A stretch of 64,000 nucleotides of DNA from Undibacterium piscinae. GTDB lineage: Bacteria > Pseudomonadota > Gammaproteobacteria > Burkholderiales > Burkholderiaceae_D. The translations under genes and the position numbers were made by a program. Numbering within the stretch: the first letter of the stretch is position 1; each line of letters starts with the position of its first letter. A model generated the notes under the pieces. It did no database searches. It saw only the letters and a program-made list of their open reading frames with translations, and was not told the origin of the DNA. The DNA is taken from positions 1,984,001 to 2,048,000 of the forward strand of contig CP051152.1 in assembly GCA_003970805.2 (NCBI GenBank). Reading direction: 5' to 3'. Positions 11,889 through 33,480 of the stretch are shown piece after piece.

Positions 11889-12347
11889 TTAGATAGGCAA
11901 AGTCAGGCCGCGCTTGACTGCATCCATGACTACCGTGGTGCGAAATTTAATGATGTTGCTATTCTTAAAAAATACCGCACGGGTGAAGGCCTCATAGTCA
12001 GCCATGCTGGCGGCATGTAGCACCAGCATAAAGTCATATTCACCCGCGACGTAATAGCATTGCTGTACCTCAGGCAATGCCAACATCTGGCGTTTAAATT
12101 GATCTATGGTATCGGCCAGTCCCTTGGCAAATACCAGTTCCACCAGCAGCACCAGGGGATAGCCAACCGCATCTGGCGCAATCACGGCCACCTCGGCCTG
12201 GATCACACCAACCTCACGCAAACGGCGTATCCGTCTTTGTACCGCAGTCGCCGATAAGCCTATCTCCACACCAATCGCATCGGCGGGGTGGCGGCAGTTC
12301 ACTTGCAAATAACGCAGGATGGAAAGATCAAAGTGATCGAGTTGCAT
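11889..12347 (-). CDS. Lrp/AsnC family transcriptional regulator
   Basis: A 152-residue protein of normal family length. It has an N-terminal HTH (LDHFDLSILRYLQVNCRHPADAIGVEIGLSATAVQRRIRRLREVGVI) and a C-terminal RAM domain (VAGEYDFMLVLHAASMADYEAFTRAVFFKNSNIIKFRTTVVMDAVKRGLTLPI). The effector is probably an amino acid. It converges closely (6 nt) with the solute-binding remnant and has no intact partner gene next to it. Its target may have been lost in the decay of this region. Confidence 0.9.
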   Translation of the reverse strand: MQLDHFDLSILRYLQVNCRHPADAIGVEIGLSATAVQRRIRRLREVGVIQAEVAVIAPDAVGYPLVLLVELVFAKGLADTIDQFKRQMLALPEVQQCYYVAGEYDFMLVLHAASMADYEAFTRAVFFKNSNIIKFRTTVVMDAVKRGLTLPI

Positions 12348-12390: not shown

Positions 12391-12452
12391 TAACTCAAAA
12401 CCGCGCCAGCGTCGTTGCACTCGCCTGGCGCGAATAATTTTTCCTAAGTCCG
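12391..12452 (+). repeat. Degenerate copy of the TAGGACTTACGCAAAA element family
   Basis: CTCAAAACCGCGCCAGCGTCGTTGCACTCGCC followed by AATAATTTTTCCTAAGTCC resembles the outer parts of the complete element at 16455-16556 with the middle deleted. The terminal repeats have decayed. Confidence 0.55.
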
Positions 12453-12519
12453 AAGTGGTTGATAGCGCATAAATCTAGGGAACGAAAAATATCATACCCG
12501 TAATTTCCTCCCCTAGCTC

Positions 12520-12695
12520 GTCACTGTTTCAGCCTGCTATGAAAAGTCAAAACACTCAACACAGAGGCCACAGAGACACAGAGTTCACAGAGAAAGCAAG
12601 GCAGTTCTCTTCGTTTTTATCTGTGTCTCGTGCCTCCTTTGAGAGGTTTTCGTTTTTTTTTTTAATAATTTTAGTTAAGCAGGCTGAACAGTTAC
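12520..12695. mobile_element. IS66-like non-autonomous element 1 with 8-bp target duplication
   Basis: A 176-bp segment with inverted ends GTCACTGTTTCAGCCTGCT (12520-12538) and AGCAGGCTGAACAGTTAC (12678-12695). It is flanked by the exact direct repeat CCTAGCTC at 12512-12519 and 12696-12703. GTAA-type ends with an 8-bp duplication fit the IS66 family. The interior has no gene; it contains a CACAGAG-rich stretch and a facing CTGTGTCTC stretch, unlike the interiors of the two sister elements. It lies in the 500-base gap between the Lrp-type and RutR-like genes. Confidence 0.8.
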
Positions 12696-12727
12696 CCTAG
12701 CTCGCAACAACCAAACAAGGAAGGCCC

Positions 12728-12805
12728 AGCGCGCATATTCCATGCGGCTTAGCGGCTAGGCAGGCTGGAGAGGCGCATGGACTATGCGCCTCTCCAGCCT
12801 GGTAC
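12728..12805. repeat. GC-rich hairpin repeat, copy 1
   Basis: The stretch includes a perfect hairpin with 18-bp arms (CAGGCTGGAGAGGCGCAT, 12761-12778, and its complement at 12784-12801; 5-base loop), preceded by GCGCATATTCCATGCGGC. Related segments occur at 22527-22592 and 28605-28690, so this is a dispersed intergenic repeat. No T-run follows in either direction, so it is not a standard terminator. Confidence 0.75.
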
Positions 12806-12848
12806 TTTTAAAAATCGGGGAGCTTATTGGCTAACTTAATTGGCTAGC

Positions 12849-13562
12849 TTAATTGGATATTGCCAGCGCCGCCAACACCATATCAACGATCAGTTTTTCG
12901 GCAGCCTCAAAATCTTTTGCGCTGAGCTTCTTTTGATTCAGCACCAGATTCATTTGGGTAGAAAAGTCGGCATAGGATTGCGTCATGGCCCAGATGCTAA
13001 ACAGCAAATGGGTGGGATTGACGGTAGCGATTTTGCCTTCGCTCATCCATTTTTCAAAGCTGGCGATATCCTTGCGCAGATAAGGGATCACTTTAGTGCG
13101 TATCTGTTGGCCGTAGATTTTTGCGCCACCGATCACTTCCATCGCGTACACCTTAGAAGCACTCGGATGTTCGCGTGAAAAACGTAATTTTTCCTGAATA
13201 TAGCTGCGCAATAAATCTTGCGGCTCGCGACTGTCATCGGCCAGACTATCCATACGAGCTAGCCAGACATCGAGCACATCATCCAGCACGCGCTGATACA
13301 GAGCAGGTTTGCTGGCAAAGTAATACAGCAGATTTTGTTTCGATACCCCGGCTTGCTGGGCGATGCTGGCGATCGATGTCCCTTCATAACCGCATTCGGC
13401 AAACATGGTGACGGCGTGCCGCAAGATCTCGGTCTCAAGCTTACCGCGCTTGTCAGCGGCCAGTGTTGTTGTCGCTGCCGTGGCTGCAGATCCGTCTGTT
13501 TTAGCCGTCCGTGGCTTTTTCACAACGCTGCGTTCTGATTTTTTGACCAATTTTTCAGGCAT
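12849..13562 (-). CDS. TetR family regulator of pyrimidine catabolism, RutR-like
   Basis: A 237-residue protein. Residues about 1-40 are a basic, alanine/threonine-rich extension. The TetR HTH follows (ILRHAVTMFAECGYEGTSIASIAQQAGVSKQNLLYYFASKPALYQRVLDDVL), then a RutR/YcdC-type ligand domain (YAMEVIGGAKIYGQQIRTKVIPYLRKDIASFEKWMSEGKIATVNPTHLLFSIWAMTQSYADFSTQM). RutR is a uracil-responsive repressor. This gene is divergent from preT, and a close match to the RutR operator sits in between (13702-13717), so it very probably controls the pyrimidine operon. Confidence 0.9.
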   Translation of the reverse strand: MPEKLVKKSERSVVKKPRTAKTDGSAATAATTTLAADKRGKLETEILRHAVTMFAECGYEGTSIASIAQQAGVSKQNLLYYFASKPALYQRVLDDVLDVWLARMDSLADDSREPQDLLRSYIQEKLRFSREHPSASKVYAMEVIGGAKIYGQQIRTKVIPYLRKDIASFEKWMSEGKIATVNPTHLLFSIWAMTQSYADFSTQMNLVLNQKKLSAKDFEAAEKLIVDMVLAALAISN

Positions 13563-19579: not shown

Positions 19580-19732
19580 GTCCCCTCTCCCGCATACGGG
19601 AGAGGGTTAGGGTGAGGGTCATGGCAAACGTGTGCGATGATCGAAAAGAAAAATCGCCAAGTTCTCGCCTTGTTTTTAATATACCTTGTCATTACTAACA
19701 CCCTCTCCCGCCAGTGGGAGAGGGGGCTAGCT
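19580..19732. repeat. REP-like pair of CCCTCTCCCGC hairpins
   Basis: Two hairpins, CCCTCTCCCGcatacGGGAGAGGG near 19583 and CCCTCTCCCgccagtGGGAGAGGG near 19701, lie between hydA and the next gene, with the text GTTAGGGTGAGGGT between them. The same motif pair forms the interior of the elements at 22606-22810 and 33272-33480, but here the GTAACTGTTCAGCC ends are absent. Confidence 0.7.
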
Positions 19733-21120: not shown

Positions 21121-21636
21121 CTAAGCGATGGCCCAATCGTGTGGATATGTTCCACTTTTCACATATCGATGAAAGCTCGAATACGGCCAATCAAGCACAC
21201 GATCAACCAAGCGGTGTTTCACCGGATTGAAATGTAAATAATCCATGTGACGAGCATAGTCGGCGTCATCACGAATTTGATGCTCCCAAAAACGTCGTTG
21301 CCAGATGGTCGATTCGCGATGTTTTTGTTTAGACGGAGTGATCCAATCATCGCGAAAATAGCTAGCCTTGCATGCCAACGATACCTTTCTTTTAATCATC
21401 ATCCAGCGCGTAGAAAAATCCACATCTCCTTCGGGTAAAGTCCAAATACAATGCAAATGATCTGGTAACAAAACCCATGCATCAATAACGAAAGGTCGGG
21501 AGCAGCGCACCGATTCAATTGCTCCTCTCAAAGTATCGCGGACAAGTTCATCACATAAAATGGTCTGTCGACGGTAAGTAACAACGGTAAAAAAATAGGT
21601 GCCCCCTGCGACAGACGAACGACGATAATGCGACAC
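21121..21636 (-). CDS. REP-associated tyrosine transposase (RAYT)
   Basis: A 171-residue Y1 (IS200-like) transposase domestic to REP sequences. The N-terminal GGTYFFTVVTYRRQ and the metal-binding HUH motif as HLH in AWVLLPDHLHCIWTLPEGD are clear. The catalytic Tyr is expected in the DYARHMDYLHFNPVKHRLV block. WPYSSFHRYVKSGTYPHDW is the typical RAYT C-terminus. The gene is bracketed by two inverted REPs (21040-21072 and 21666-21694), the arrangement expected of a REP-mobilising unit. No insertion-sequence ends beyond these were seen. Confidence 0.93.
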   Translation of the reverse strand: MSHYRRSSVAGGTYFFTVVTYRRQTILCDELVRDTLRGAIESVRCSRPFVIDAWVLLPDHLHCIWTLPEGDVDFSTRWMMIKRKVSLACKASYFRDDWITPSKQKHRESTIWQRRFWEHQIRDDADYARHMDYLHFNPVKHRLVDRVLDWPYSSFHRYVKSGTYPHDWAIA

Positions 21637-22605: not shown

Positions 22606-22810
22606 GTAACTGTTCAGCCTAATATACAAAGCCCTTCTCCCGCTCGCGGGAGAAGGGTTGGAATGAGGGTAGTTTAAATTTGCACAATGTTTGATTTTTC
22701 ATATTGCTAAGCGCATCAGTTATTTGAAGGCAAGCGTTGCTCAATCACCCTCACCCCGGCCCTCTCCCGCTAGCGGGCGAGGGAGTTTTCATCGCTGGCT
22801 GAACAGTAAC
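22606..22810. mobile_element. IS66-like non-autonomous element 2, perfect ends and 8-bp target duplication
   Basis: A 205-bp segment with perfect 14-bp inverted ends GTAACTGTTCAGCC (22606-22619) and GGCTGAACAGTAAC (22797-22810). It is flanked by the direct repeat AAAAACCT at 22598-22605 and 22811-22818. The interior holds two REP-like hairpins (CCCTTCTCCCGC...GGGAGAAGGG and CCCTCTCCCGC...GCGGGCGAGGG) and no gene. The interior aligns along its length with the element at 33272-33480. Confidence 0.88.
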
Positions 22811-28604: not shown

Positions 28605-28690
28605 TGGCATGCCGCCAAGCCGCATATTCCATGCGGGCTGCAGGCCAGGCACGCTGGAGAAGCGCATGGAATATGCGCGCTGGCAGGGTG
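28605..28690. repeat. GC-rich hairpin repeat, copy 3
   Basis: GCCGCATATTCCATGCGGGC and GCGCATGGAATATGCGC form overlapping dyads. The text matches copies at 12728 and 22527, including GGCTGCAGGCC-like and CTGGAGA motifs. The remaining bases to 28808 hold nothing recognisable. Confidence 0.65.
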
Positions 28691-33271: not shown

Positions 33272-33480
33272 ATTACTGTTCAGCCCGTTATATCAAACCC
33301 TTCTCAGCCGTCACGGGAGAAGGGTTGGGATGAGGGTGGGTCCGAAATAAGCGCATATTGATTTTTCATGGGTTAAGCGTATCAGCTATTGAAGGCAAGC
33401 GTTACTTTTTTCAATCACCCTCACCCCGGCCCTCTCCCGCCAGCGGGCGAGGGGGGGGTAATTGCTGGCTGAACAGTTAC
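33272..33480. mobile_element. IS66-like non-autonomous element 3, abutting the hydroxyproline operon
   Basis: A 209-bp segment with ends ATTACTGTTCAGCC (33272-33285; two changes from the family end) and GGCTGAACAGTTAC (33467-33480). The interior aligns with element 2, including both REP-like hairpins and the text GGCAAGCGTTAC. Flanking octamers TACACAAG and CAGGCAAG agree at 5 of 8 positions, so any target duplication has decayed. Its right edge is 23 bases before the epimerase start codon. Confidence 0.78.

Follow-up and report, generated by a model that had tools for sequence, protein, structure and literature searches.

Bacterial MITEs, among them MITEPsy1 (PMC3189936) and NEMIS and Nezha (both named in PMC3733652), appear in the available text of these papers as short, gene-free elements with terminal inverted repeats and a target duplication that are presumed to move in trans. 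Other mobile elements are associated with REPs. In the available text of Tobes and Pareja (2006; PMC1525189), the target of type 1 elements is a single position within the REP, while type 2 elements (ISPsy7, ISRm5, and ISNm1106) lie near or adjacent to an unbroken REP, and no fixed distance was found there. Two kinds of published orphan repeats are also relevant, the CGTC-tagged REPs, which are described as lacking a dedicated transposase (Di Nocera et al. 2013; PMC3733652), and the TMECO intrastrand triplex motif, whose pattern was taken from Holder et al. (2015; PMC4666352). The available parts of both papers leave the mover or the origin of these repeats open.

Here, we describe a 176-bp element from Undibacterium piscinae that shares the general features of the bacterial MITEs. 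As far as the available descriptions go, it differs from them in its particular ends, in its 8-bp duplication, in the occurrence of the same ends across phyla around unrelated interiors, and in its offset from REPs, and no source element was found for it. Like the REP-associated insertion sequences (PMC1525189), it is a mobile element associated with REPs, but it differs from those described in that text by being offset 34-37 bp outside the REP. We found no description of its ends in the open-licence PMC literature, including the available text of PMC3733652, PMC3189936, PMC3281130, PMC1525189, PMC4666352, and PMC3116915.

Results

The window, that is, the whole stretch of 64,000 nucleotides analyzed (G000:C1:1984001-2048000, from the 4.19-Mb single-contig genome G000), contains on its plus strand a non-autonomous element (MITE) of 176 bp at 12520-12695, which was recognized from its repeat family, ends, and fold as an imperfect palindrome of a CACAGAG sub-family. 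It is bounded by exact 8-bp copies of the target duplication CCTAGCTC at 12512-12519 and 12696-12703, and its inverted ends read GTCACTGTTTCAGCC and GTAACTGTTCAGCC. End comparison gave a left terminal inverted repeat at 12520-12538 (plus strand; GTCACTGTTTCAGCCTGCT, with one extra T) and a right one at 12678-12695 (GTAACTGTTCAGCCTGCT, read on the minus strand). The arms at 12528-12538 and 12678-12688 are perfect over 11 nt, and the outer arms at 12520-12528 and 12687-12695 agree at eight of nine positions; due to the extra T, the 14-nt ends agree at 9/14 when compared ungapped. An interior hairpin at 12557-12645, seen both as an inverted repeat and by folding, consists of a CACAGAG-rich arm and a facing CTGTGTCTC arm, and 12512-12703 as a whole folds into a long hairpin (z -6.3; none of 200 shuffles as good). 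An earlier note on this DNA had described inverted ends with an exact 8-bp duplication, a transposase-free interior, and a CACAGAG-rich interior with a facing arm, and this anatomy held: the coordinates and arms were verified, no ORF of at least 60 aa in the window's ORF list overlaps 12520-12695, and the facing arm is CTCTGTG-like. When positions in the window were drawn at random 200,000 times, 10 draws had exact 8-bp repeats spaced 176 bp apart and 547 had inverted ends agreeing at 9/14 or better; chance is not expected to produce the two jointly at a given place. The element lies downstream of a TetR-type ORF (12849-13562) and upstream of an AsnC/Lrp-type ORF (11889-12347), both regulators on the minus strand. 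Rfam at gathering score gave no match in 12400-12900, and weak matches fell on the REP hairpin described below. There is good support for classing 12520-12695 as a MITE flanked by an 8-bp duplication, as it has terminal inverted repeats, no coding capacity, a target duplication of constant length (8 bp here, 7-8 bp across the family), dispersed copies, and filled/empty site pairs, the empty sites being those of two other copies and not of 12520-12695 itself.

Searching G000 with the element gave 10 places at E < 0.01, itself included. Six copies, 12520-12695 (L001) among them, are near full length with 84-100% identity, L002-L006 being 84-99% identical to the window element; the other matches are the partial L007, L009, and two related elements whose interior is of the GACGCCGAG kind, L008 and L010. 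Exact 8-bp duplications were identified at L001, L003, and L005, and also at L031, L039, and L044, which are elements with other interiors, while weaker ones were seen at L006 (7 bp), L008 (7/8 matches), and L004 (decayed). G000 has 20 exact occurrences of the end motif GTNACTGTTCAGC and 42 at up to one mismatch, as compared with 16 for the reversed pattern. The genome search that the earlier note had suggested as a check was thereby answered, in that further copies of the family, and of its ends, are present elsewhere in the chromosome. Its claim that the same ends surround unrelated interiors was also borne out. Two sister elements in the window carry, in place of the CACAGAG interior, a C-rich/G-rich hairpin of the TMECO type that is not the REP of G000. 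The first, at 22606-22810 (205 bp), is flanked by the exact duplication AAAAACCT and has the exact TMECO pattern at 22748-22783 on the minus strand; the second, at 33272-33480 (209 bp, left end ATTACTG), has it at 33418-33453, also on the minus strand, and shows no clear target duplication. A plasmid search with the element gave only matches of up to 42 bases, in three cyanobacterial plasmids.

The nearest (sister) genome, G015, aligns to the locus over 15.3 kb at 99.7% identity, with 7 mismatches and 17 gap openings, and its orthologous site is occupied by the element with the same duplication, CCTAGCTC. The insertion thus predates the G000/G015 split or was shared by exchange, and the empty site that had been proposed for related strains was not encountered: G015 is filled, no empty counterpart was found, and of 42 genomes put to a joined-flank query for the site (up to seven candidate places scored per genome), G000 and G015 alone gave a match. 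The whole query comprised 20 G015 sites and three window sites, most of them unscored at up to seven candidate places per genome. In G000, it showed the L285 site to be filled and another site to be element-free, and the L268 and L259 sites to correspond to copies L002 and L007, respectively. G015 holds more copies of the element than G000, and the element-free site is a precise empty site, at which a single GTTTGGTG in G000 corresponds to two copies flanking element L273 in G015; it adjoins a short tandem repeat that differs in length. A second empty site has a single GAATGGTG in G000 versus GAATGGTG and GAATAGTG around L261 in G015. It came from nine 20-kb stretches of G000, where the L269, L275, and L284 sites gave no readable outcome.

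Over 660 bp around the window site, G000 and G015 are identical at 646/666 positions, with every difference inside the element. The window element and L002 (G000:C1:2442214-2442382) share about a dozen small insertions and deletions, and both G015 orthologues have the usual sequence; the flanks of the window locus are identical to those of G015 despite these interior differences. Gene conversion between the two G000 copies and a consensus error carried from one repeat to another by the assembly both fit this pattern. The likeness of the two genomes is mosaic, with 99.7% over 15 kb here and 88-95% at the L273 locus, and they differ in size by 0.7 Mb.

Ends of the GTNACTRTTCAGCC type with 7-8-bp duplications and unrelated, mostly hairpin interiors were also identified in MAGs of Flavobacteriales, KSB1, Chloroflexota, and Bacillota. 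The end scan of the genome collection gave at least 115 stretches, 80 of which were listed; on a rough estimate, chance alone would yield hundreds. A second end together with 7-8 duplication matches was found in 7 of the 80 listed stretches (three from Clostridium and one each from KSB1, Lachnospiraceae, Anaerolineales, and Flavobacteriales, the last with a nested IS), and further, looser end pairs are probably due to chance. Ten genomes reached via such loci, and so picked for having hits, contain 1-93 end motifs, the reversed pattern being found there 0-1 times. When at least seven duplication matches were required, elements were present at 29/39 loci fetched from G015, 15/32 from G049, 9/27 from G041 (one place fetched twice), 11/20 from G043, 3/4 from G044, and 4/4 from G042; these loci had been picked by similarity or end motif, those of G042 and some of G044 and G049 after the pair had been seen, and the pair-choosing score counts the duplication and so favors finding one. 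Among congeners, the duplication scan found an element at 11 of 13 scanned loci, the sample being 16 loci with an exact end from which L213, L216, and L217 had been excluded beforehand as chance matches. The spread of this end among phyla that these data suggest rests on metagenome-assembled genomes.

Interiors folded better than 40 shuffles (z < -2) in 28/29 elements of G015, 10/14 of G049, 5/9 of G041, 7/11 of G043, 2/3 of G044, 2/4 of G042, and 7/11 of the congeners, showing that hairpin interiors are usual but not required. The shortest multi-copy form seen is represented by two identical 64-bp elements in G042 (L099 and L141) with different 8-bp duplications, and one element measures 40 bp (L608; duplication ATCAGCAT). 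As so short a duplex is hard to loop, these lengths hint at a folded or cruciform intermediate.

Two kinds of interior match the published orphan repeats. Hairpins tagged with [C/T]GTC and with an AT-started stem were found in 6 of 11 congener elements and in 6 of 14 distinct elements of the KSB1 genome G041 (8/16 rows, one element having been fetched three times), while they are rare elsewhere (1/34 elements in G015, 1/17 in G049, and 0/13 in G043). The congener stem CGTC-ATGCCGGA-CTTGA-TCCGGCAT-CCA fits the definition of a CGTC-tagged REP in the text of PMC3733652, and some congener and G041 elements enclose hairpins like these repeats. The difference is that the repeats are described, in the available text, as having no dedicated transposase, whereas some of those seen here are interiors flanked by 7-8-bp duplications. 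The likeness to TMECO (PMC4666352, available text) consists of the exact pattern inside both sister elements. In contrast, five TMECO regions of E. coli K-12, covering 9 of the 23 tabled motifs, contain no end with 12/14 or more matches, and a third copy in the window (19583-19618), which has the exact motif, has no GTNACTRTTCAGCC-type end at this level within about 480 bp. The best ends in the E. coli regions reach 10-11/14, and two loose pairs with a 6/8 duplication, both extending into coding sequence, are ascribed to chance. The rarity of tagged hairpins in three genomes and the end-free E. coli regions imply that the element is not the only vehicle of these repeats.

The REP of G000 consists of arms reading GCGCATATTCCATGCG in facing pairs, which in the window start at 12731/12774, 22562, and 28620/28663. 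The bihairpin next to the element (12731-12789; arm 12731-12746, facing arm 12774-12789) lies beyond the target duplication, at a distance of 35 bp from the element end. The corresponding distance is 28 bp for the sister at 22606, and the sister at 33272 has no REP arm within 250 bp. In G015, counting elements with at least six duplication matches and REP arms with up to 4/16 mismatches, the nearest arm lies at 34-37 bp in 17 of 33 elements, at another distance in eight (22, 27, 46, 78, 78, 111, 184, and 228 bp), and beyond 250 bp or absent in the remaining eight. The far arm, where matched, is at 77-80 bp from the peak elements, the exceptions being L265 (far arm at 118 bp, extra arm at 75) and L270 and L295, which have no far arm; the two elements at 78 bp may mark the far arms of REPs whose near arm has decayed. 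A rough binomial estimate for 17 of 24 REP-adjacent elements in a 4-bp bin, against a uniform distribution within 250 bp, is about 3e-25; it used 24 elements where the later count was 25, and it ignores that both partners are intergenic, although a shared intergenic location cannot produce so narrow a peak. Spacers and duplications vary between the G015 sites, which shows that the REP-adjacent elements are separate insertions, and the 17 peak elements cover several sub-families with lengths of 155, 165-189, 205, and 283 bp. A single orientation relative to the REP (10/10 in a first count) was discarded, as this measure is trivial for a palindromic element; where the ends can be distinguished, both orientations occur: of 23 listed elements, the ATG-type end is REP-distal in 8 and REP-proximal in 11, with four unclassed.

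In a second species of the genus (G006), L222 is flanked by the exact duplication GTATCGTA and has a REP arm at 35 bp. In other phyla, folding-energy profiles showed no peak at the REP distance in G041 and G043, and G049 showed a slight dip at 36-40 bp from the elements. The 40-bp element L608 lies about 37 bp, counted by eye, from a palindrome beside a RAYT gene. A possible REP-guided placement is suggested by the strong regularity of position within one genome, by the window element, and by a single copy from a second species. The spacing could also have arisen the other way around, with the REP inserting at a fixed distance from an element that served as its landmark. REP and element are seen in their present state only, no site with a REP and without the element was found in a relative, and the REP-first order rests on no single site. 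Even so, we regard the element as landmark as improbable, because the window REP at 28620-28678 has no nearby end of 12/14 or more matches, because eight of the G015 elements stand without a REP arm within 250 bp, and because the duplication hugs the element and not the REP.

The earlier note had named the element IS66-like. A target duplication of 8 bp occurs in IS66 but is not unique to it, and the likeness to this family consists of that duplication and of ends starting with GT.A. G000 contains eight IS66 loci, five of them flanked by exact 8-bp duplications. Six of the eight can be read at both ends and the others at one, and these ends read GTAAGCGTCCAAC, which has little in common with the element end GTNACTRTTCAGCC beyond GT.A. 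The element end was found at up to two mismatches in none of the eight, and a search for paired ends at 36 IS66 loci, which answers the suggested check for a full-length IS66, gave none with the ends of the element. In relatives, 9 of 28 IS66 loci were scanned for the element end, with one weak match (L072), and when paired GT..AC ends were sought in all 28, the duplication-matched pairs read GTAAGC-, GTAACC-, or GTATGC-. The IS66 transposase domain (PF03050) was matched in three of the nine genomes reached via the end motif and was full length in one, these genomes being mostly MAGs, which lose IS elements in assembly. As the ends and the transposase distribution disagree with an IS66 derivation and only the duplication length agrees, the element was not assigned to IS66; what stands of the earlier name is the non-autonomous mobile element with an 8-bp duplication, and not the IS66 origin. 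The mobilizing enzyme is likely not the resident IS66. A divergent IS66-family transposase that recognizes GTNACTRTTCAGCC and acts as master would account for the 8-bp duplication, for the GTAAC at the start of the right end, and for the company of IS66 copies with 8-bp duplications in G000. We consider it unlikely in view of the end sequences of the resident and related IS66 loci and of the six end-motif genomes out of nine that gave no PF03050 match, even if most of these are MAGs.

No autonomous element combining these ends with its own transposase was found at PF03050, PF13610, or PF01797 loci or among end pairs in the fetched DNA. IS6 elements have CTGTT near the end and an 8-bp duplication, and the CTGTT near the end of the present element made this family (PF13610) a candidate; matches were obtained in 5 of 11 genomes, and none of eight loci was bounded by the ends. 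Several candidate autonomous elements were likewise rejected. L151 (419-2310; 1892 bp, duplication TATATTTT) encloses a transposase with rve, HTH, and IS481 leucine zipper domains, but its outer parts resemble, by eye, the arms of the transposase-free L244 from the same genome, and it thus appears to be an element with a nested IS481-like IS. In L243 (504-2282), an IS110-type transposase between the ends is accompanied by no matching duplication and is probably also a nested IS, and the ORFs between the ends of L146 and L242, read by eye, include no transposase. An apparent end near L300, GTCACTGGTCAGA, lies inside an IS3-like transposase ORF (rve/HTH_21), a loose 826-bp pair in L716 is inside a 1025-aa ORF, and among the best 160 of at least 240 stretches, from two of eight viral contig scans, the sole pair with a 7/8 duplication (L452) is inside a large ORF. 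Among the matches listed for G041 and G043, close pairs of end motifs are MITE-sized. Wide facing pairs (4.4 kb on C150 of G043; 7.7, 8.1, and 10.3 kb on C97 and C69 of G041; 15 kb on C49; 3.4 kb on C25 of G044) agreed at 0-4/8 duplication positions, with C49 judged by eye; those ORFs that lie within the 4.4-kb pair read as transport genes.

The remaining candidate was the REP system. The window encodes a REP-associated tyrosine transposase-like protein of 171 aa at 21121-21636 on the minus strand (Y1_Tnp, 22.5 bits, slightly below the cut-off of 23 bits), which is the possible owner of the GCGCATATTCCATGCG REPs and is not bounded by the ends of the element. If a RAYT or the REP system itself moved the element, the fixed REP distance would be explained, and PF01797 is present in 12/12 tested genomes versus 5/14 control genomes; the tested genomes had, however, been picked for the end motif. 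None of 30 RAYT loci has the ends on both sides together with a matching duplication, including L608, where the RAYT is located between an end-like motif in a neighboring ORF and the 40-bp element, and the element is therefore not placed among the REPs and REPINs moved by RAYTs, being also distinguished from them by its 8-bp duplication. An 8-bp duplication is not known from Y1/HUH transposition. A RAYT as the mover thus has little probability. That a random inverted repeat and a random 8-bp repeat, or the assembly, produced the element can practically be dismissed. The many one- and two-base interior differences from the orthologue that are common to L002 could be consensus error, but the element as such has an orthologue at the same site with the same duplication in G015 and belongs to a multi-copy family with duplications.

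Discussion

We put at roughly 0.77 the probability that 12520-12695 is a non-autonomous hairpin MITE that is mobilized in trans and whose insertion is positioned relative to REPs in this genus, the latter two parts being read from its anatomy. The ends would then hold most or all of the cis-information for movement, and a transposase encoded elsewhere would act on them in trans with an 8-bp staggered cut. In this genus, the insertion complex may be positioned by the REP or by a REP-bound protein, in which case the center of the staggered cut would lie about 31 bp, or three helical turns, from the REP arm. The putative passenger hairpins formed by the interior arms may help to bring the ends together.

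A wider reading, which we offer as a tentative and rather doubtful one, is that of a widespread and so far unrecognized transposition system in which one conserved 14-bp end, present in four named phyla besides that of the host, carries almost any short hairpin, leaves an 8-bp duplication, and is addressed by REPs in REP-rich hosts. If true, such a system would carry CGTC REPs and TMECO motifs, insert three helical turns from REPs, and be a REP-addressed analogue of the attachment-site targeting of Tn7. The fixed REP offset, if true, would represent a new mode of target choice, and REPs would serve other mobile DNA as addresses. Should part of the CGTC REPs and TMECO motifs be carried by a single end sequence, their spread becomes testable, and in practical terms the ends together with the 8-bp duplication provide a simple rule by which orphan repeats can be annotated as insertions.
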